Assembly: GCF_022814725.1 (NCBI RefSeq)
Contig: NZ_CP093442.1
Location: 3,286,001 to 3,350,000 of the forward strand
Reading direction: 5' to 3'
Source: Bdellovibrio reynosensis
Lineage (GTDB): Bacteria > Bdellovibrionota > Bdellovibrionia > Bdellovibrionales > Bdellovibrionaceae
Length of the DNA stretch: 64,000 nt
Both the position numbers and the translations under genes were made by a program. The stretch's first letter is position 1. Every line of letters begins with the position of its first letter. Below the pieces are notes generated by a model. That model worked only from the letters and a program-made list of their open reading frames with translations. It did not search any database and was not told where the DNA came from. Below, piece by piece: positions 1 through 9,756 of the stretch.

Positions 1-1306
1 TGGGCGTATCCCACGAAGGATGGGGTTTAATGCGATTAGCAATTTCATCGCTGAGCGCTTCAGATACACCCATCATGGTTTCCATGAACTCACGATTTTG
101 TTTAAAGCCCGGAAGAACCCCAACAAGCTTGTACCAGTTAAATAGGTTATAATAAACGCGACCGTTTACCGATCCCAGCATGTTGCCAAGGTAAGAATCC
201 ATGTCCTTAATGATCTCGTTTGGAACACCTAGGACTTCACAAAACTGCACGTAGACGGCTTTATAATTGCGAAGGGCAAAACTAAAGCTGAGTGGTGAAG
301 TCAAGCCGCCATAGGATTCAATGATGTTCGAATTGTCCCATAAGTTCGGATAGCCAATAAGATCCTGATCTAAACTTGTCACAGGACGCGTTTGTAAAAC
401 ATAAAGTTTGCCATTTTCAATGGCCCACTCGATATCCTGTGGACGGTGATATTGCTTGTGAATCAGTTGGCCCAGCTGATGAAGCTGATTTAATTCTTGC
501 TCACTCAGTGAAGCCGTATTTACTAAAGGTTCTGCTACAACTTTAAGTTCACAGTGCCCTGATGATGACTTCTTCATCATTTCTTTTTTCTCTACGACTT
601 CCTGACGAAGCAACTTTCCGTGATTTGCGTCTAACCAGAAAGAATCGGCATCAAGGGCGCCTGAAACCAGTCCTTCACCCACGCCATACACCGCAGAAGC
701 GACATAGGTGTCGGTTTTCTTCGCCACCGGATCACAGGTAAAAAGAACTCCGGATTTATCTGGGTCTATCATTCGTTGAAGAACGACAGAAACTGAAATC
801 TTTTTTAGGTCGATCTTGTTTTCAAGGCGATAAACTAAACCACGCTCTGAAAAAGCGGAAGCCCAACAGCCCTTGATATATTTTAAGATATCATCCTTAC
901 CGTTCACGTAAAGGAAGCTAGAAAGTTGACCCGCAAAGGAATGGGCTAAGCTATCCTCATCCGCCGCTGACGAGCGTACGGAAAAAACTTTGTCTTCACC
1001 TAAAGTTTTTAATGCTTCGATCAAAGATTTTTCAACGGAAGTGGGTATGGCTGTCTTATCAAATAAAGCTACGATTTCTTGTTCAGCTTGCGCTGCCGTT
1101 AAAGATCCCTGCTGCAATTTATCTAACGAAATTTCAAGTGCTGATTTTACGCCAGGGGATTGCAAGAATTCATGAAAGTAGCGTTTCCCAAACACCACCC
1201 ATTCAGGTACAGGAAGTCCTGCTTGCGACATTAGGAAAAGGTTGAAACCTTTTCCTCCGGCTTCATTCTTAGCAAAAAACAGGGTGGACTTGGGTGTTAC
1301 TAACAT
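1..1306 (-). CDS. PEP-synthase/RPH-like dikinase, partial
   Basis: About 435 N-terminal residues are visible and the C-terminus lies beyond the left edge. The protein opens with a PPDK_N-type ATP-grasp domain: GGKGFNL near residue 17, FSVRSSAADED near residue 108, and the closing LQTRPVT near residue 307. PEP synthase, pyruvate phosphate dikinase and rifampin phosphotransferase (RPH) share this domain; they split ATP to AMP and Pi and pass phosphate through a mobile His domain. The segment after residue 315 (NIIESYGGLTSPLSF) resembles the linker of RPH-like members more than housekeeping PpsA, so a small-molecule substrate is possible. The ATG lies 3 nt past the stop of the UbiA-like gene, so it is the last visible gene of a tight operon. 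The His-domain, which would help decide, is not visible. Confidence 0.8.
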   Translation of the reverse strand, partial: MLVTPKSTLFFAKNEAGGKGFNLFLMSQAGLPVPEWVVFGKRYFHEFLQSPGVKSALEISLDKLQQGSLTAAQAEQEIVALFDKTAIPTSVEKSLIEALKTLGEDKVFSVRSSAADEDSLAHSFAGQLSSFLYVNGKDDILKYIKGCWASAFSERGLVYRLENKIDLKKISVSVVLQRMIDPDKSGVLFTCDPVAKKTDTYVASAVYGVGEGLVSGALDADSFWLDANHGKLLRQEVVEKKEMMKKSSSGHCELKVVAEPLVNTASLSEQELNQLHQLGQLIHKQYHRPQDIEWAIENGKLYVLQTRPVTSLDQDLIGYPNLWDNSNIIESYGGLTSPLSFSFALRNYKAVYVQFCEVLGVPNEIIKDMDSYLGNMLGSVNGRVYYNLFNWYKLVGVLPGFKQNREFMETMMGVSEALSDEIANRIKPHPSWDTP

Positions 1307-1309
1307 AGC

Positions 1310-2173
1310 TTAAGCTCCCACGACGTAAATAAGAATGAGGTAATGCAAAAGTAAATAAACGCCGGAAATATTTCTAAAAAGATTCGCGGTTTTGTTTGTT
1401 TTCTTAAGCAGGTATCCCAGGCTTATTAAGATATAAATTCCAGCGGCCACCGCAAAAAGCGGAAGCGAAAAATACCAGGCAATTATTCCTACACCCAGTA
1501 TCACTTGACTGATCGAAAGGGCCCAAGCCCCATGGCAGCCAAAAATATTTGAATAGCTTGGAACGTGGGGTCTTTCCTCGGTCGGTGCGAAAGTTTTTCG
1601 CGCAAATTCAAAGAGGTTAAAAAAGGCCCAGTTCATTAGAAAGAAAAATAAAATAGCGGGCGATAAGAGTGTAATATCAACGCCACTCATAGCCACGGCA
1701 CTTGAAAGACCTAAAAGCACGCTGACGAAGGTGTGAGTAACTGCATAAGTGGTGAGGTGAGGACGAAGAATTTCGCCAATAAAAAACTCTTCATACATTA
1801 ACAGACTATAACCAATAGCCATTGCATGAATCAAAAAAGCATTTCGCCCAAAGCAAGCCGCTAAAACAAGTTCGAAGATGATTAATCCAATCAGTGCTTT
1901 TTTTACTTGGATAACGCTTAAGATACCGCGAGCCAGGGGACGAGTGGGATTGACCTTCAAATCCACTTCATAGTCTTTGATCTCATCAAACAAGCGCATG
2001 CGGAAAAAGAAAGAAAGCATTAACAGGAAGACTCCAGCAAAACGCAACCAATCCCACGTGCCACTAGTAAGTTTGACCAAATAAAGGCCATTAGCCCATG
2101 AAAATAATAGGATCATGGGCACGTAGGCAGCAGGACTGAATCTCTCTTGGATGAGAATCCACCAATTACGCAA
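1310..2173 (-). CDS. UbiA-family prenyltransferase-like membrane protein
   Basis: A 287-residue protein made of about eight hydrophobic segments. After the second segment it carries FRMRLFDEIKDYEVD followed by NPTRPLARG. This matches the position of the Asp-rich NDxxDxxxD loop and the following PxRP motif of UbiA-superfamily enzymes, which bind Mg-prenyl diphosphate and alkylate an acceptor in the membrane. The first Asp-rich motif is variant (DEIKDYEVD), and I did not find a clear second DxxxD loop, so substrate and activity are open. It overlaps the upstream fusion gene by 8 nt and sits 3 nt from the dikinase gene, which implies co-translation. The surrounding acyl-activating genes suggest a lipid or meroterpenoid-like product rather than ubiquinone (inference). 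Confidence 0.75.
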   Translation of the reverse strand: MRNWWILIQERFSPAAYVPMILLFSWANGLYLVKLTSGTWDWLRFAGVFLLMLSFFFRMRLFDEIKDYEVDLKVNPTRPLARGILSVIQVKKALIGLIIFELVLAACFGRNAFLIHAMAIGYSLLMYEEFFIGEILRPHLTTYAVTHTFVSVLLGLSSAVAMSGVDITLLSPAILFFFLMNWAFFNLFEFARKTFAPTEERPHVPSYSNIFGCHGAWALSISQVILGVGIIAWYFSLPLFAVAAGIYILISLGYLLKKTNKTANLFRNISGVYLLLHYLILIYVVGA

Positions 2174-4565
2174 TAATCACCGCCGGGTCTTTTAATTGAT
2201 CACGCAGCACTTTGTATTCAACTTTCGAGTGATGACGCGGATCCATAGGTATCTTATGGACAAACTTAATTTCGTCCACTGGGATTTTGTTTTTATCAAA
2301 CACACGGCGAATTTCTTTTTTAGCAGCCTCATAATCAAAACCGTCTTTAGAAATTTCAGCTTTAAGCTCGATACAGGCATAAGTTGCCTGACCTAAATCC
2401 CTATGATCAACACCCAAGAAAGCGCAGCGATAAGTAAAGTCCATGCGTTTTAATAAGACTTCCGCGCGCACCGGGAAAAAGTATTTTCCAGCTCGTTCAA
2501 TTGCATTGTTAACACGGCCTACGATCCACAGGTCTTTATTCTTATCAATGTAAGCAAGGTCACCCGTGCGATGCCAGACGCGGTTTTGTGCATCCATGAT
2601 TTTAGTGGTTTTAAAGGCGTCTGGATTATTATAGTAATCTCGGCAAACGTGGTCACCTGTACAGATGAACTCACCAACTTCACCTTCTGGCAATTCTACT
2701 TTTGACCAATCACCATTTTGAAGTTCCACGGGGCCATCTTTAATGCGGATAAACTTAAAGTCGATGTCTTCGCTGATATGACCCACGTTCACACCTTCTT
2801 CGATGATTTCATTGTCTGTGATCGTACTTTCTTTTAGCATATCACGGCCTTCAATGTGGGCCATCGGCTCAGCCTCGGTAGAACCATACAAAATCCAAAG
2901 ATCTGTTTGCGGGGCAATCTCATAGAAGGCTTTTACGTCATCTTTAGAAATCGGCGCGCCACCGGTGACTACACGGCGCAGTTTTGTAAGCTGAATGCCT
3001 TTTTCTTTACAGAATTTAGCAAGGCCCACAAGCATGCTTGGCGATAATGTCGTGCAGTTGATATTTTCATTGATGATTTGATTAGCTAGGATGGCGGGAT
3101 CTTTTTCTGAGGGCGCTGCTAAATCCAGTGCCGGCAGAACTGTTGTTACACCCGATGCTAGGTTGTTTAAACTGAAAATAGGGAATGCCGGCATGTCCTT
3201 ATCCACTTCTGTATAGGGGATAACATGGGAAAGGGCATGATGTTGCGCAGACAAGAATCTATGGGTGCGGTTTGCTCCCTTAGGTTTACCAGTTGATCCC
3301 GTAGTGAAAGTGATAAGAGCTGTGAATTCACTTTCAACCGCAGCTACTGGTGAAGGATCTTTTTTAAGAAGCTCTTCAAAGCGGTGAGTGAACTTGTCAC
3401 CCGGTCCATATAAAATACGGATCGGCATTGATTTAAATTCGGGAACTTGATCAACAAGATCAAACGCCATTTTGAAGCTGATCATGGCTTTAGGATTTAC
3501 GCATTCAGCTGAAGCACCAAGGTGATGGCTTCGTGCCCATGAATCCAAGAACACGGCGATGGCGCCAATTCTTTGCACGGCAAACATAGCCGTGTACATA
3601 TCAAGACTCATAGGTAAAAAGATGATGACGCGATCGCCTTTTTGAATGCCGATATCTAATAGTCCGCGGGCGAAGGAATTAATTCTTGTCGCAAACTGCG
3701 CGAAGGTAATTTTATCGTGGGCAATAGGCGTGTGCGGATTGCCATCCCATTTTTGCAAAGCTTCGCGATTTGCCCAGGTTAAGGCAATGCGATCAGGGAA
3801 CTCACGCAAATGCTTTTCCATATAGCCGATGACGTTGTTGCGTTCGTCAGAACCTGGATAATAACCGATTTTATTATTTCCTTGCGAAGAAGACATAGCT
3901 TTAATCACCTCTTCGGGGTGGGACCATAAAAGGCCATGACCCGCATCTTTGATTTCCACGGATTTAAACTTTGGATAATGCTTTAAAATTTCACTTTGAA
4001 AAGCGGTCGCTGAAATCTTATCTTGTGTACCAAATAGCGCTGTCACTGGAATGTCGCACACATCGGATTTGGACCATGGATTTTTCTGCATAAGAATTTT
4101 GTTTTGCGCCGTCTTCTGCCAAAACTTCCAATCCTGCAGCCGTTCTTTAACTTCAGAAAGATACTTATCATGTCCTTCTTGCAAAGGATGAATAAGGTCC
4201 GCAAAAAAGCTGTCTTTGCTTTTTGCATGGTTGCCTTGAATGATTTTGTCACCAAGAACTGGCAATCCAAGCAGGGTTTGCGCAAGACCACTAAGCTCAC
4301 GCTCTGGCTTGATATAAGGGGTCACTAGAACCACGTGTTCGACATAGTCTTTGAACTGCGGAAGATTTTTAAGAATGCGGTAAGCACCCCAAGAATGGCC
4401 TAAAAGAATTTTTTTAGTTTTATCTTTTTTTAGAAGTTCCAACCATTGATCACTATAAGCATCAACAGCTTGCAAATCATATCCTTGGCCTTCAAGTTTC
4501 TTTTTCAAGATGGACCAATCTTCAGAATGACCAGGATTGCCGTGAAGTGCCAGGATGGTTTTCAT
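2166..4565 (-). CDS. Alpha/beta-hydrolase fused to OleC-like AMP-ligase
   Basis: A 799-residue two-domain protein. Residues 1-225 form an alpha/beta hydrolase with nucleophile elbow GHSWG (Ser58), a candidate acid in GTQDK (Asp182) and His in DAGHG (His210). Residues 245-795 form an ANL-superfamily adenylating enzyme with P-loop TTGSTGKPKG (421-430), YGSTEAEP and HRTGDLAYID. Details such as MPAFPIFSLNNLASG and VTGGAPIS recall OleC, the beta-lactone synthetase of long-chain olefin synthesis. Natural OleB-OleC fusions are known in actinobacteria. Here the hydrolase looks like a generic serine hydrolase rather than the Asp-nucleophile OleB. No OleA or OleD is seen in the window. It overlaps its neighbours on both sides (4 and 8 nt). 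Acyl-activating function is fairly secure; the product is unknown. Confidence 0.82.
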   Translation of the reverse strand: MKTILALHGNPGHSEDWSILKKKLEGQGYDLQAVDAYSDQWLELLKKDKTKKILLGHSWGAYRILKNLPQFKDYVEHVVLVTPYIKPERELSGLAQTLLGLPVLGDKIIQGNHAKSKDSFFADLIHPLQEGHDKYLSEVKERLQDWKFWQKTAQNKILMQKNPWSKSDVCDIPVTALFGTQDKISATAFQSEILKHYPKFKSVEIKDAGHGLLWSHPEEVIKAMSSSQGNNKIGYYPGSDERNNVIGYMEKHLREFPDRIALTWANREALQKWDGNPHTPIAHDKITFAQFATRINSFARGLLDIGIQKGDRVIIFLPMSLDMYTAMFAVQRIGAIAVFLDSWARSHHLGASAECVNPKAMISFKMAFDLVDQVPEFKSMPIRILYGPGDKFTHRFEELLKKDPSPVAAVESEFTALITFTTGSTGKPKGANRTHRFLSAQHHALSHVIPYTEVDKDMPAFPIFSLNNLASGVTTVLPALDLAAPSEKDPAILANQIINENINCTTLSPSMLVGLAKFCKEKGIQLTKLRRVVTGGAPISKDDVKAFYEIAPQTDLWILYGSTEAEPMAHIEGRDMLKESTITDNEIIEEGVNVGHISEDIDFKFIRIKDGPVELQNGDWSKVELPEGEVGEFICTGDHVCRDYYNNPDAFKTTKIMDAQNRVWHRTGDLAYIDKNKDLWIVGRVNNAIERAGKYFFPVRAEVLLKRMDFTYRCAFLGVDHRDLGQATYACIELKAEISKDGFDYEAAKKEIRRVFDKNKIPVDEIKFVHKIPMDPRHHSKVEYKVLRDQLKDPAVIIA

Positions 4566-5302
4566 ATTTTGGTTCCTCTAAGTCGTAATCTATAGAAGTC
4601 TGTGATCTTCGGATTGCTCCGATACACGGTACTTGTTGTTTTTAAGTTCTCTTGGCCCTGGATCTTTCCCGTATTTTCAAGTTCTGCCAACACGTTCGAG
4701 ATGGCTTTGGCTTCTAAGGCCGCACCCATTTCCAAAGAGGCTAAGTAGTCTTTTTTATCGGAGGGAACGACCTCGACCTTTAACAAGGCACCATCATCAA
4801 GTTTTGAGGTCATCTCATGAATGGAAAATCCCGCCTCGGTCTTATGAAGATGAGCCCAAAAATCACACATTAAACCGCGTTGATCAGGCAGTAATCCGTG
4901 ATGGATGTTAATGCATCCCATTTTGGGAATGCTTAGCAGGTTCTTTTTAAAGAAAGAACGAGTTCTTGCATTTACAATTAAATCTAACTTTAAAGATTTT
5001 AAAAGTTCTAAGCTTTCAGGGGAGTTGATGTCTTTAACGACAAGAATTTTTTTGCCAGCCGCTTGATACGCTTGGATTTTTCTTTTTAAGGAATTATCAA
5101 ATTGATTTTTAAGAAGCTGCAGTCCCATGAAAGGGGCGGCTCCTGAAAGGAAAAGAAGCAGAGCCTTTAGCACGATATCCCAAGAGCGGTTGTCTATGAC
5201 GATAAGGCCTTGGATCCGTGGATCGTTTGCCAGCGGTAAAACCAGGCCATCATAGTTCTTTGGGACAAATGTCACCGCTGAGGTGACAAGCCATGCGTTC
5301 AT
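4562..5302 (-). CDS. Formyltransferase-fold protein (Formyl_trans_N only)
   Basis: A 246-residue protein with the Formyl_trans_N signature INIHHGLLPDQRG near residue 131, then HEMTSKLDDGALL. The catalytic Asn-His-Asp trio of 10-formyl-tetrahydrofolate-dependent formyltransferases (Fmt, PurN, ArnA) appears kept. The usual SLLP folate loop reads GLLP. It is shorter than Fmt (about 315 residues) and lacks the C-terminal tRNA-binding OB domain, so it is not the translation-initiation enzyme. The start overlaps the stop of the acyl-CoA ligase (ATGA-type, 4 nt) and its end overlaps the hydrolase-ligase fusion. The context suggests formylation of an amine in the same pathway (inference). It could instead use another one-carbon donor or have lost activity. 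Confidence 0.75.
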   Translation of the reverse strand: MNAWLVTSAVTFVPKNYDGLVLPLANDPRIQGLIVIDNRSWDIVLKALLLFLSGAAPFMGLQLLKNQFDNSLKRKIQAYQAAGKKILVVKDINSPESLELLKSLKLDLIVNARTRSFFKKNLLSIPKMGCINIHHGLLPDQRGLMCDFWAHLHKTEAGFSIHEMTSKLDDGALLKVEVVPSDKKDYLASLEMGAALEAKAISNVLAELENTGKIQGQENLKTTSTVYRSNPKITDFYRLRLRGTKI

Positions 5303-7080
5303 AAATAAAGCTCTTCGATTTTATCCTTAAACTTTTGATCCAATACTTTTCTTTTTACTTTTAAAGACGGCGTAAGCTCGCCACCTTCCACAGAAAATTC
5401 ATTGGGAAGGACTGCATACTTTTTGATGCTTTCAAAGCTTGCAAGCTGGGCATTAGCATCAGCAATGGCTTTTCTTACTAGGTCTTGGGCAAATGGAGTT
5501 TGCACCAGCGAATTCCAATCGCTGAATGAAACCTGTTTTTCTTTTGCCAGGCTTTCAACCGATGGACGATCCAAGGTCACTAAAGCGATAATATATTTAC
5601 GTTGATCGCCATGAATGTGCACATGGGATACAAATGGATTCATCTTTAACAATCCATCAAGGCGCTGTGGCGCTACGTATTTACCACCAGCAGTTTTAAT
5701 CAAGTCTTTTTTACGATCCGTGATTTTTAAATCTCCGCCAGGCATGATTTCGCCGATGTCGCCGGTATGAAACCAGCCATCAGTGAAAACTTCTTTGGTG
5801 GCTTGCTCGTTATGAAAGTATTCTTTCATAACCTTATTACTTTTAATTAAAATCTCGCCGTCTTCAGCGATTTTAATTTTCACATCACCAATAGGACGTC
5901 CCACGCTGCCAAAGCGATAGTTGAATGGCGTATTCACGCACACAGCCGCTGTAGTTTCAGTAAGACCATAACCCTCAAGAATTAAGATTCCTGCAGAGTG
6001 GAAGAATAAAGCAATATCTTTTGAAATCGGCGCGCCACCACTGATGGAAAAACGCAGACGTCCGCCAAAGGCTTCAGTGATCTTAGAAAGTACAAGCTTT
6101 CTAGCCAGTTCATACTTCACAAGCAAATCAAGGGGCAAGATCTGACCGCTTAATTTATATTCGCCAACCTTTTGACCAACATCCAAAGCCCACTTGAAAA
6201 GTTTCATTTTCAAAGGTTGGGTTTGTACTTGCGCCCAGATAGCCGCATAGATTTTTTCAAAGATGCGCGGTACTGAAACTAAGATAGTCGGGCGAACTTC
6301 GCCCAAGTTCCCTCTGATTTTTTCGATGCTTTCTGCATAGGCCATAGTAAAACCAATGTACATATGGCCCCAGTGCTCGATGCGTCCCAGGATGTGGGCA
6401 TAGGGAAGAAAACTTAATGAAACGTCTTTTTCATTGACCCCGCATAAAGGGAAAGCTTCAGAAACTTCGCTGAAAGCCTGAAGGTGAGTAAGAACCACAC
6501 CCTTAGGTTTTCCGGTCGTGCCTGAAGTGTAAAGCAAGCTTGCCATATCATCAGGTTTTAGTGTTGAAACTCTTGAAGTATAGCAATCTGCATGTTCTTT
6601 TAGATAAGCAAAACCAAGCGCGTTTAAATGTTTCCAAGTGATCACGTCGGGGTTAGAAGCGTTATCTTCAAAAACAATGACTTTTTCAACCAAGGGGCAT
6701 TTATCTTTGATGCTATTAAAAACTTTTAAAGGACCTCGGGTTTCGCAAATAAGGATCTTTGCGCCACAGTTGTTAAGAATGTATTCAACATCTTCAGCTG
6801 TGTTGTTTTGGTAAATAGGAACTGTTACAGCTTTGATCCCAAGGATAGCGTAATCAGAAACAGACCATTCATAACGAGTATTAGCCATGATGGCAACGCG
6901 GTCCCCAGCCTGCACACCTAGCGATAGAAGTGCTGCCCCCACTTTTTCAATATCTTGAAAGTATTCAGACCAAGATTTGCTGTGCCATTGGCCATCTGCT
7001 TTAAAGCGAACAGCATCGGCATGAGGATTTCTTTTGGTCATGCTTAGAATAGATGGGCCCAGGGTGTCTAACTTCGTCAT
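5299..7080 (-). CDS. AMP-forming long-chain acyl-CoA synthetase
   Basis: A 593-residue ANL-family ligase of FadD15/long-chain-fatty-acid-CoA-ligase type. It carries the P-loop LLYTSGTTGKPKG (about 183-195), EGYGLTETTA, the WFHTGDIGE motif and the ITDRKKDLIKTAGGKYVAP hinge. The length fits bacterial and eukaryotic long-chain acyl-CoA synthetases, which activate fatty acids to acyl-AMP and then acyl-CoA at the inner membrane. A GAGGAG Shine-Dalgarno lies about 8 nt before the ATG. It is the first gene of the five-gene minus-strand operon and begins 40 nt after the stop of the kinase gene, so read-through from the kinase is possible. It probably supplies acyl-CoA for the operon's later enzymes, though a general role in fatty-acid activation cannot be excluded. 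Confidence 0.9.
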   Translation of the reverse strand: MTKLDTLGPSILSMTKRNPHADAVRFKADGQWHSKSWSEYFQDIEKVGAALLSLGVQAGDRVAIMANTRYEWSVSDYAILGIKAVTVPIYQNNTAEDVEYILNNCGAKILICETRGPLKVFNSIKDKCPLVEKVIVFEDNASNPDVITWKHLNALGFAYLKEHADCYTSRVSTLKPDDMASLLYTSGTTGKPKGVVLTHLQAFSEVSEAFPLCGVNEKDVSLSFLPYAHILGRIEHWGHMYIGFTMAYAESIEKIRGNLGEVRPTILVSVPRIFEKIYAAIWAQVQTQPLKMKLFKWALDVGQKVGEYKLSGQILPLDLLVKYELARKLVLSKITEAFGGRLRFSISGGAPISKDIALFFHSAGILILEGYGLTETTAAVCVNTPFNYRFGSVGRPIGDVKIKIAEDGEILIKSNKVMKEYFHNEQATKEVFTDGWFHTGDIGEIMPGGDLKITDRKKDLIKTAGGKYVAPQRLDGLLKMNPFVSHVHIHGDQRKYIIALVTLDRPSVESLAKEKQVSFSDWNSLVQTPFAQDLVRKAIADANAQLASFESIKKYAVLPNEFSVEGGELTPSLKVKRKVLDQKFKDKIEELYL

Positions 7081-7120
7081 GGTGGCTCCTCAAGGTTGCA
7101 AATTTCTTAACGAAGAAAAA

Positions 7121-9082
7121 TTATTTTAAAAATAAATCTATCATTTTTCTTTGGTCGGCAGGAACAGTGACTGTCGTTTCTGCTGAAAGACCGGTGGTCT
7201 TATTCAGGGCTTGGATTTTTACACCCACTTCAGCTTGAATAAGATAAGCATCGCCTGAAGGTTTGATGGATACAGGAACCCCTGCAATTCTTAACTCAGG
7301 ATTCGCTCCGCCATTAATGATGTTAACCATCACCGAAGCCACACGCGGAAGTCTTTGCATAGTTCCTGTGAATGAATAAGCCTCATAGGTTGGAGTAATC
7401 GTAGTTACAAGGTCTGTGTAACCTTCTTTAACCAAACGAAGTCCAAACGGAGTGTTTGCTTTTACAGTTTTTCTAACAGGAGTGAATTCGCCTGTATCTA
7501 CGCCATCGATCACTACGCGCGCACGCTCTGGAGTCGAGTAGATTGTGACGGTGTAGGCTGGAGCCGTAGCCGCCATATCCACTTGTTGTGAAGATGGGTC
7601 CGCTGTTGCAGTTCCAGTCGCCGTGGTTGCTGTCACTGTCGAAAGGCCCGCTGACGGAGTACGGTTGGGTTGTTTTTTACCAAGGAAGTTATTATAAAAC
7701 CACCAGCCACCAACAACTAAAACCAAACCAATCACAGCCTTCATCGCAAGACCGGTGATGTCTTCGATAGAAGAAGACCCGCCATTTCTTGAAGAAGGGT
7801 AGGGATTCGTTGGAAGACCGTTAGGTGTTCTTGTCATTGTGCCATTGCTGTTACTAATACCCGTCGCATGGGTGCGAGTTTGCGTGATATTGGTGTTCGT
7901 CTGAGTATTTGTTTGCCCACCCATTCCCGGAGGTTTCGGAGGAGCTTTCAGACCGTCCAAGTTCACACGAATATCAGTTGAAGTATCTAGATCTAGTTTT
8001 TCATTTGCTTCATCTTCCATCGGCATAGGGGCTGGCATAGCACCCGGGCGAGGAGGAGCGCGCAGATCCGTTTGAGTCACGACAGTTTTATCATCTGCCG
8101 TTGACGCTTGAACTTTTGCAAACTCCACAAGTTTACGGCGTTGATCCAAGAAAGCAGCAGAAAATGCGTTTTTCATGAACACGCTAAAGTCGTGTGGAGA
8201 GAAGTCAGGATATTGAGTATTTAGGAAACGATTTAAATCACGATGCAAGTCTGCGGCTTTTTGATAGCGCAGGCTTTTATCTTTCGCTAAGCCCTTATTT
8301 ACGATTCTTTCTAATTCCGGCGGAATAGAAGGATTGATTTTGCGAATCGAAGGGATTTGGCATTCACGGATTTTTCTTAAGATCGCCGCTTCACTGTTTG
8401 AAGTGAAAAGACGGTCGTTAGCTAAAAGCTCCCAAAGAACAATCGCTAAAGAGAAAATATCTGTGGTGTTATCAATGTGCTGGCCATCAGCTTGCTCTGG
8501 GCTCATGTAACCGTATTTCCCTTTAAGGGTTCCGGCTTTAGTAGCTTCCAATTGAGTTTCTGCTTTGGCGATACCAAAATCGATGATCTTCACTTCACCT
8601 TCAAAGCTGACCATGATGTTTTGCGGACTCATATCACGGTGAACGATATTTAAAGGTTTACCAGTGGTGCCATCAATACAACGGTGAGCATGGTCAAGAC
8701 CTGCTGCCACCTCTTTGATCATGAAGACAACTTGTTCTGGTGTGAATTGCGTATTTGATTTTTTTAGTTCATTCAAGATCTGGCGAAGATTGCGTCCTTC
8801 GACGTATTCCATCACCAAGTAAAATTGCCCTCGCTCAACCCCGAAATCATAAATGGAAACCACGTTTCCATGATTGAGATTTACAGCAATCTTTGCTTCT
8901 TCTTTAAACATATCAATAAATTCTTGGTGATCCGAATATTGGGGAAGAATTCGCTTGATAGCGACGAACTTATTGACACCTACGGCTCCCGTAGACTTTG
9001 CTAGATACACTTCGGCCATACCGCCCGCGGCGAGACGTTCCAGAAGGATGTATTTACCAAACTGCTCTACAGGTTGAGACAT
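7121..9082 (-). CDS. Ser/Thr protein kinase with TM and PEGA domain
   Basis: A 653-residue Hanks-type kinase. It shows the glycine loop LAAGGMAEVY (17-26), Lys43 in VAIKR, catalytic HRDMSPQN (Asp150), DFG (168-170) and GYMSPEQ. The PQN form of the catalytic loop is typical of myxobacterial and bdellovibrio kinases. A proline- and threonine-rich linker (about 330-440) leads to one transmembrane helix (about 447-467). The outside part contains a PEGA domain (STPERARVVIDGVDTG, EGYTDLV), which may sense or bind the envelope. The kinase domain is therefore cytoplasmic and the PEGA part periplasmic. It is divergent from coaE across about 65 nt. The acyl-CoA ligase operon begins 40 nt downstream, so the kinase may be part of that transcript (inference). 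Confidence 0.93.
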   Translation of the reverse strand: MSQPVEQFGKYILLERLAAGGMAEVYLAKSTGAVGVNKFVAIKRILPQYSDHQEFIDMFKEEAKIAVNLNHGNVVSIYDFGVERGQFYLVMEYVEGRNLRQILNELKKSNTQFTPEQVVFMIKEVAAGLDHAHRCIDGTTGKPLNIVHRDMSPQNIMVSFEGEVKIIDFGIAKAETQLEATKAGTLKGKYGYMSPEQADGQHIDNTTDIFSLAIVLWELLANDRLFTSNSEAAILRKIRECQIPSIRKINPSIPPELERIVNKGLAKDKSLRYQKAADLHRDLNRFLNTQYPDFSPHDFSVFMKNAFSAAFLDQRRKLVEFAKVQASTADDKTVVTQTDLRAPPRPGAMPAPMPMEDEANEKLDLDTSTDIRVNLDGLKAPPKPPGMGGQTNTQTNTNITQTRTHATGISNSNGTMTRTPNGLPTNPYPSSRNGGSSSIEDITGLAMKAVIGLVLVVGGWWFYNNFLGKKQPNRTPSAGLSTVTATTATGTATADPSSQQVDMAATAPAYTVTIYSTPERARVVIDGVDTGEFTPVRKTVKANTPFGLRLVKEGYTDLVTTITPTYEAYSFTGTMQRLPRVASVMVNIINGGANPELRIAGVPVSIKPSGDAYLIQAEVGVKIQALNKTTGLSAETTVTVPADQRKMIDLFLK

Positions 9083-9147
9083 GAAAACTGATTCCCCTTT
9101 GTGAGGACTATCGGTAAAATAAAATGAATCCTTAAGGAGATTTGTCT

Positions 9148-9756
9148 ATGAGATGGATAGGACTGACCGGAGGTATAGCTTGTGGTAAGAGCACCGTAAG
9201 CCGTCTGCTCAAAAATCACTCCATTCCGATTATAGACGCTGACGAGATTGCTCACGAAGTCGTGCGGCCTGCTTCGCCTGGACTTAAGTCGGTTGTTCAT
9301 CACTTCGGAAATGAAGTTTTGAATGAAGACGGATCGTTAAATCGACGCAAGCTTGGCCAATTGGTGTTCGGTCATCCCGAAAAATTGAAAGCCTTAGAAT
9401 CTATTCTTCATCCACTTATTCGGGCTGAAACCCAACGTCGTCGCCAAGTACTGCTGGATATGAACGCGCCTTTAGCGATTTACGATATTCCGTTACTGTT
9501 TGAAACCCACGCTCAAGATCAGTTTGATGCCATTGTGGTAGTAACTTGCACTAAAGAACAACAAAAAGAGCGACTGCGCCGTAAAAACGGGTGGAGCGAA
9601 GACGAAATCGATATGCGCATTGCCTCGCAAATTCCCACTCAGTTTAAAGAAAAAGAAGCTGATTTTATTCTAGAGAACAACCGCGATGAACAGCATCTGC
9701 TGAAGGAATTCCATCGCTTGTTAGCCTGGTTGGAAGAACAGAAAAAACAAACCTAG
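9148..9756 (+). CDS. coaE: Dephospho-CoA kinase
   Basis: A 202-residue P-loop kinase that performs the last step of coenzyme A synthesis, phosphorylating the 3'-OH of dephospho-CoA. It has the Walker A GGIACGKST (8-16), DADEIAHEVV, LKALESILHPLI, DIPLLFE and the lid RLRRKNGWSEDE. These are the standard CoaE motifs at standard length. I chose ATG 9148 because AAGGAGA ends 8 nt upstream; an in-frame TTG at 9142 would be only 2 nt from that site. Its stop overlaps by 4 nt the end of the convergent barrel-like gene. The divergent partner is the PEGA kinase, and the shared 65-nt gap must hold both promoters. Confidence 0.96.
   Translation: MRWIGLTGGIACGKSTVSRLLKNHSIPIIDADEIAHEVVRPASPGLKSVVHHFGNEVLNEDGSLNRRKLGQLVFGHPEKLKALESILHPLIRAETQRRRQVLLDMNAPLAIYDIPLLFETHAQDQFDAIVVVTCTKEQQKERLRRKNGWSEDEIDMRIASQIPTQFKEKEADFILENNRDEQHLLKEFHRLLAWLEEQKKQT

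Follow-up and report, generated by a model that had tools for sequence, protein, structure and literature searches.

The left edge of a 64,000-nucleotide (nt) stretch of the Bdellovibrio reynosensis chromosome (NZ_CP093442.1, positions 3,286,001 to 3,350,000; hereafter the window) carries five minus-strand open reading frames (ORFs), tightly packed in positions 1-7080. A sequence-only reading had proposed that they form a compact operon for a lipid-like product. We found all five ORFs and confirmed their families, and the spacing is as tight as proposed: the gene for an acyl-CoA ligase overlaps that for a formyltransferase-like protein (FT) by 4 nt, FT overlaps a hydrolase-ligase fusion by 4 nt, the fusion overlaps a UbiA-type gene by 8 nt, and a 3-nt gap separates the latter from a dikinase. 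The last four of these genes are one end of a ~24 kb island that runs from the end of the acyl-CoA ligase gene FadD (window 5298) to an ABC ATPase gene (genome 3267017). Coordinates are window positions unless marked as genome, L (a fetched locus) or G (a genome label). The four genes are:

1..1306, minus strand: dikinase, a phosphotransferase resembling RPH (rifampin phosphotransferase), PigC and RedH, with PPDK_N and PEP-utilizers mobile domains; the window holds its first 435 codons, and the complete gene of 895 amino acids (aa) lies at genome C1:3284619-3287306 (L002:12619-15306)
1310..2173, minus strand: UbiA-superfamily membrane transferase, 287 aa; Pfam UbiA, just over the cut-off
2166..4565, minus strand: serine alpha/beta-hydrolase (about residues 1-228) fused to an AMP-forming acid ligase (about 229-799); Pfam Abhydrolase_6 and AMP-binding
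4562..5302, minus strand: formyltransferase-like protein (FT), 246 aa; Formyl_trans_N

Conservation of this module is established. FT, hydrolase-ligase, UbiA and dikinase lie in the same order at 15 of 20 fetched places; of the remaining five, three run into a contig end or masking and the other two represent unrelated formyltransferases. At these places, only the closest genomes have the acyl-CoA ligase and a Ser/Thr kinase next to the module. Scanning genome contigs with a UbiA alignment gave 51 loci, many of them from metagenome bins, so that individual taxon assignments may be mistaken. We met the order FT-ligase-UbiA-dikinase again in Bdellovibrionota, Verrucomicrobiota, Planctomycetota and further metagenome records (the Kiritimatiellae locus L058 ends before the dikinase), and the UbiA-dikinase pair is also found in Bacteroidota, Spirochaetota and one WOR-3 record. 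Since the gene order is conserved elsewhere, the arrangement is not due to chance. The sequence-only reading had made its pathway idea depend on the five genes occurring together outside this genome, which we observed for four of them. It had also asked whether the set is limited to predatory bacteria. It is not: related modules are present in records of Verrucomicrobiota, Omnitrophota, Planctomycetota, Spirochaetota and Bacteroidota. At least eight congeneric genomes lack the module.

The sequence-only reading had also allowed for more genes beyond the left edge. The dikinase stop codon lies at genome 3284619, 1.4 kb left of the window, and the adjoining gene is convergent, so there is no sixth gene downstream and the dikinase is the last of its transcript. 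A second operon that belongs to the pathway lies on the plus strand, 8-19 kb left of the window (L095:9017-10970, L095:12910-14991 and L002:942-6009). It encodes an ABC exporter (a MacB/FtsX pair), a lipid kinase of DAGK/YegS type, a short-chain dehydrogenase/reductase (SDR), an acyl-thioester reductase (hereafter the reductase), a LolA-like protein, a DUF3419 (BtaA-like) protein and an outer-membrane-protein-like gene product; LolA_like, MacB_PCD/FtsX and ABC_tran domains were identified. Neighbour clustering and family scans recovered recurrent companions of the module, and in L051/L052 eight genes stand in one run, DAGK-SDR-reductase-DUF3419-FT-hydrolase/ligase-UbiA-dikinase. The reductase has 717 aa (L002:942-3095), and its C-terminal half is an acyl-thioester reductase with the fold of cyanobacterial acyl-ACP reductase (AAR; E 4e-19) and an invariant Cys648. 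It also scores 168 bits with the PigE N-domain profile, below the PigE cut-off of 850. Unlike AAR and PigE, it carries an N-terminal domain of about 350 residues (1-350) that has no family match and a structure model of lower confidence. The DUF3419 domain is recognised at E 2.5e-59 in a family that holds betaine lipid synthases, in likeness to the BtaA/BtaB pathway; here, in contrast, the protein is divergent and keeps company with N-formyl- or N-acyltransferase slots, UbiA and a dikinase. The export genes recall Lol and MMPL systems, with a LolA-like carrier and MacB/FtsX ABC pair in Bdellovibrionota of both module types described below and an MMPL transporter in Bacteroidota and Spirochaetota loci. 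They differ from those systems in being embedded in an island for lipid biosynthesis, with lipid as the predicted cargo.

Co-inheritance is likewise established. Pairwise distances of the four module proteins correlate at 0.80-0.94 across 21 loci, where the permutation maximum is at most 0.445. Among 144 genomes of the class, FT and the UbiA of FT modules (type I) are both present in 18 and both absent from 125, with UbiA alone in none and FT alone in one (G066), where UbiA is missing because the adjoining stretch is masked (N throughout L038 bases 1-9501). Both the full-length dikinase and the reductase occur in 29 of these genomes (dikinase only, 0; reductase only, 1; neither, 114), and the dikinase and DUF3419 in 27 (dikinase only, 2; DUF3419 only, 6; neither, 109). 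Fisher p values for co-occurrence are about 3e-21 or smaller and ignore phylogeny. Extra formyltransferase matches in G142 and as a second copy in G022 were set aside because they are distant (34-36% across some 110 residues) and no other tested module gene was seen next to them.

The site itself holds exchangeable contents. In two genomes of the same genus (G024 and G005) a type II module, in which a tandem-GNAT protein replaces FT, occupies this site, flanked by FadD and the DUF3419 operon; its other parts are an AMP ligase that is only distantly related (about 26%), a UbiA protein (27-33%) and a dikinase (41-43%). The fold of the GNAT-slot protein is clear from its AlphaFold model (pLDDT 84.5) and from matches to tandem GNATs in the PDB at E 4e-13. 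In G024 the module adds a cytochrome P450 (L106:8193-9536) and an MFS transporter (L106:9533-10699), which suggests further tailoring. The two types were not seen together in any genome. FT and GNAT never share a locus (24 versus 27 loci, some from the same genome), and neither do three kinds of kinase (DAGK, APH-like and a family we label c10), which suggests that each set represents interchangeable steps. The c10 family (L062, L066, L068, L069, L071 and L087) comprises polytopic membrane proteins with the motifs RKxxH and SDxxAAxxGxxYG...KSLEGS and has no relevant match in Pfam, NCBIfam or the PDB; the motifs resemble those of dolichol/phytol kinases (SEC59/VTE5), an assignment that could not be confirmed.

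Eight congeneric genomes with neither type show the empty site. The flank that they keep corresponds here to:

5299..7080, minus strand: long-chain acyl-CoA ligase (FadD-like), AMP-binding; flank, not an island member, kept in the eight island-free genomes
7121..9082, minus strand: Ser/Thr protein kinase with a PEGA domain (Pfam); flank, not an island member, kept in the same eight genomes
9142..9756, plus strand: coaE-like gene, presumably a dephospho-CoA kinase; divergent flank, a conserved neighbour by sequence

The kinase and acyl-CoA ligase genes share a strand, the kinase coming first and 40 nt separating the two, and beyond the kinase lies the divergent coaE; a promoter scan of 4000-9400 gave nothing richer than shuffled sequence. 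In the island-free genomes the next genes after FadD, directly in most and after one or two small genes in some, are the two that border the island on its left in B. reynosensis (44-61% and 56-67% identity), and the same flank comes after them. As coaE, kinase and FadD are all kept there, the island starts after FadD and the acyl-CoA ligase lies outside it. Of the proposed five-gene grouping, four genes stand as a conserved module, and we rejected the acyl-CoA ligase, as well as the Ser/Thr kinase, as pathway members. The automatic names of the genes (PEP synthase, prenyltransferase, acyl-CoA ligase) sound like housekeeping and would suit salvage enzymes that only sit together. We regard this as extremely improbable given the all-or-none presence, the empty site, the exchange of modules, the co-divergence, and a dikinase that lacks the phosphoenolpyruvate (PEP)-binding domain of PEP synthase.

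The dikinase illustrates how such names arise. It passes the cut-off of the NCBIfam model PRK06241.2-2 (1342 bits), the source of its automatic name, followed by RedH (395), PigC (375), RPH (339) and the PEP synthase model TIGR01418 (293). Pfam finds only PPDK_N and PEP-utilizers in it, with no C-terminal PEP/pyruvate-binding domain (PF02896), and with TIGR01418 requiring 740 bits we rejected PEP synthase as its identity. Its architecture is that of RPH, PigC and RedH, an ATP-grasp domain, a middle domain and a C-terminal mobile domain with the catalytic phosphohistidine and no PEP-binding barrel, matched over the full profile length. It differs from them in being always paired with UbiA and in scoring under the cut-offs of the RedH (1350) and PigC (1300) equivalogs and of RPH. 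The catalytic residues are conserved: His851 in 52 of 53 relatives (one gap) and R111, E293 and Q305 in 53 of 53, with R307 listed as invariant alongside them in the alignment of relatives.

That RedH and PigC outscore RPH raises the idea of a secreted small metabolite made by prodigiosin-like logic, in which an aldehyde from the reductase would be condensed with an amine or carbon nucleophile by the dikinase and exported as a signal or weapon. The PigE-like score of the reductase and the P450 and MFS transporter of the G024 module fit this idea. Even so, we consider it unlikely: the RedH, PigC and PigE cut-offs are far from reached, the reductase lacks an aminotransferase domain, no pyrrole genes were recognised, no reductase was found close to the dikinase and UbiA of Bacteroidota loci, and both the LolA-like protein and the lipid kinase suggest a lipid.

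The UbiA protein scores 35 bits against a Pfam cut-off of 34.2. In 58 relatives its first Asp-rich motif, DExxDxxxD, is invariant, and an equally invariant ExxRK stands at the position of the second. Its closest PDB sequence match is digeranylgeranylglyceryl phosphate synthase (E 6e-5), which could indicate an archaeal-type ether lipid with UbiA in that role. This match is weak and partial, however, and PcrB/GGGPS (PF01884) was not found in the source genome by a search that was positive in 7 control genomes, making such a lipid improbable.

The sequence-only reading had also invoked beta-lactone-type condensation, as in olefin biosynthesis by OleABCD. The fusion ligase does match OleC models (223.9 and 221.6 bits), the SDR family matches OleD weakly (65 bits, L051), and oleBC fusions similar to the hydrolase-ligase fusion are known from Micrococcales and Granulosicoccus (PMC7064751). 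Against this, the OleC (900 and 850) and OleD (580) cut-offs are not reached, and no thiolase-type OleA is seen in the island, from which the three PF08541 hits of the genome are far removed. OleB uses an Asp nucleophile, whereas the hydrolase here has a GHSWG motif and a Ser-Asp-His triad (Ser58, Asp182 and His210, with occasional departures among relatives). The fusion is, moreover, split into two genes in L041/L061 and absent from Verrucomicrobia/Omnitrophota records, which have the ligase alone, and the island has UbiA, dikinase and formyltransferase genes beyond the Ole set. An Ole-type pathway is thus largely refuted and very improbable. The A10-motif Lys of the ligase is K in 47 sequences and R in 5; a plasmid collection held only distant AMP ligases, none spanning 80% of the fusion. 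For FT, profile matches in the PDB are Fmt, sugar N-formyltransferases and ArnA, and its N-x-H...D catalytic triad (N132-H134-D169) is invariant in 23 sequences.

Judging from the sequences, we think it probable that the island directs biosynthesis and export of an envelope lipid that is prenyl- or alkyl-linked and N-formylated (N-acylated in type II). Taking the chemistry from family knowledge, we infer each substrate, the order of steps, the surface location and the biological role as follows. In the shared half, outside the window, the reductase would turn an acyl thioester into an aldehyde, the SDR would form an alcohol, the lipid kinase would phosphorylate, and the BtaA/DUF3419-type enzyme is predicted to attach the 3-amino-3-carboxypropyl group of S-adenosylmethionine (SAM) to a lipid hydroxyl, as BtaA makes diacylglycerol-O-homoserine from SAM (PMC10685587). 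In the exchangeable half, within the window, FT is predicted to cap the amine with a formyl group, a slot that the tandem-GNAT protein would fill as N-acyltransferase in type II. The ligase would convert a carboxylate to its acyl-AMP, and the hydrolase would serve thioester or ester turnover; UbiA would link a prenyl or alkyl chain as an ether, and an oxygen of the same intermediate may be phosphorylated by the phosphohistidine dikinase. Export would proceed through the MacB/FtsX-type ABC exporter, the LolA-like carrier and the outer-membrane-protein-like gene product.

Several points weigh against this envelope lipid. The 144-genome counts are uncorrected for phylogeny, and the reductase was not seen near the Bacteroidota loci, so that an aldehyde step is not common to all. 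In UbiA, ExxRK takes the place of the second Asp motif present in many relatives, the FT family match spans only about residues 90-200, the sampled DUF3419 members are only 19-33% identical to the protein of the source genome, and five further ORFs without a clear role lie inside its island. A paper search found no described product or pathway for the gene set, in line with the sequence-only reading, with most subscription papers outside its coverage.

More tentatively, the island might define a new class of envelope lipid, whose aminocarboxypropyl head would bear a formyl or acyl cap and whose ether chain would be made by UbiA. The island would then join a shared backbone and export half to interchangeable decoration modules at a single chromosomal site, much as an O-antigen locus does, but for a lipid. 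If the lipid reading is true, the pathway is present in records of Bdellovibrionota, Verrucomicrobiota, Omnitrophota, Planctomycetota, Spirochaetota and Bacteroidota, hidden by automatic names such as 'PEP synthase'. A predator must spare its own envelope inside prey, and we speculate that a variable surface lipid could be a candidate for distinguishing self from prey or for recognition. Presence or absence and the swap of types I and II within one genus offer natural comparisons.

Three further proteins were noted around the operons. A gene on the opposite strand, flanked by those for the ABC exporter and the lipid kinase, encodes an NHL-repeat protein (L095:10988-12715). The gene convergent to the dikinase (L002:11349-12563) encodes a 404-aa protein with no Pfam match. 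Between the two operons of the island lies a gene for a 1047-aa tail-fibre-like protein with a near-C-terminal Peptidase_S74 chaperone domain (L002:6706-9849; genome 3278706-3281849).

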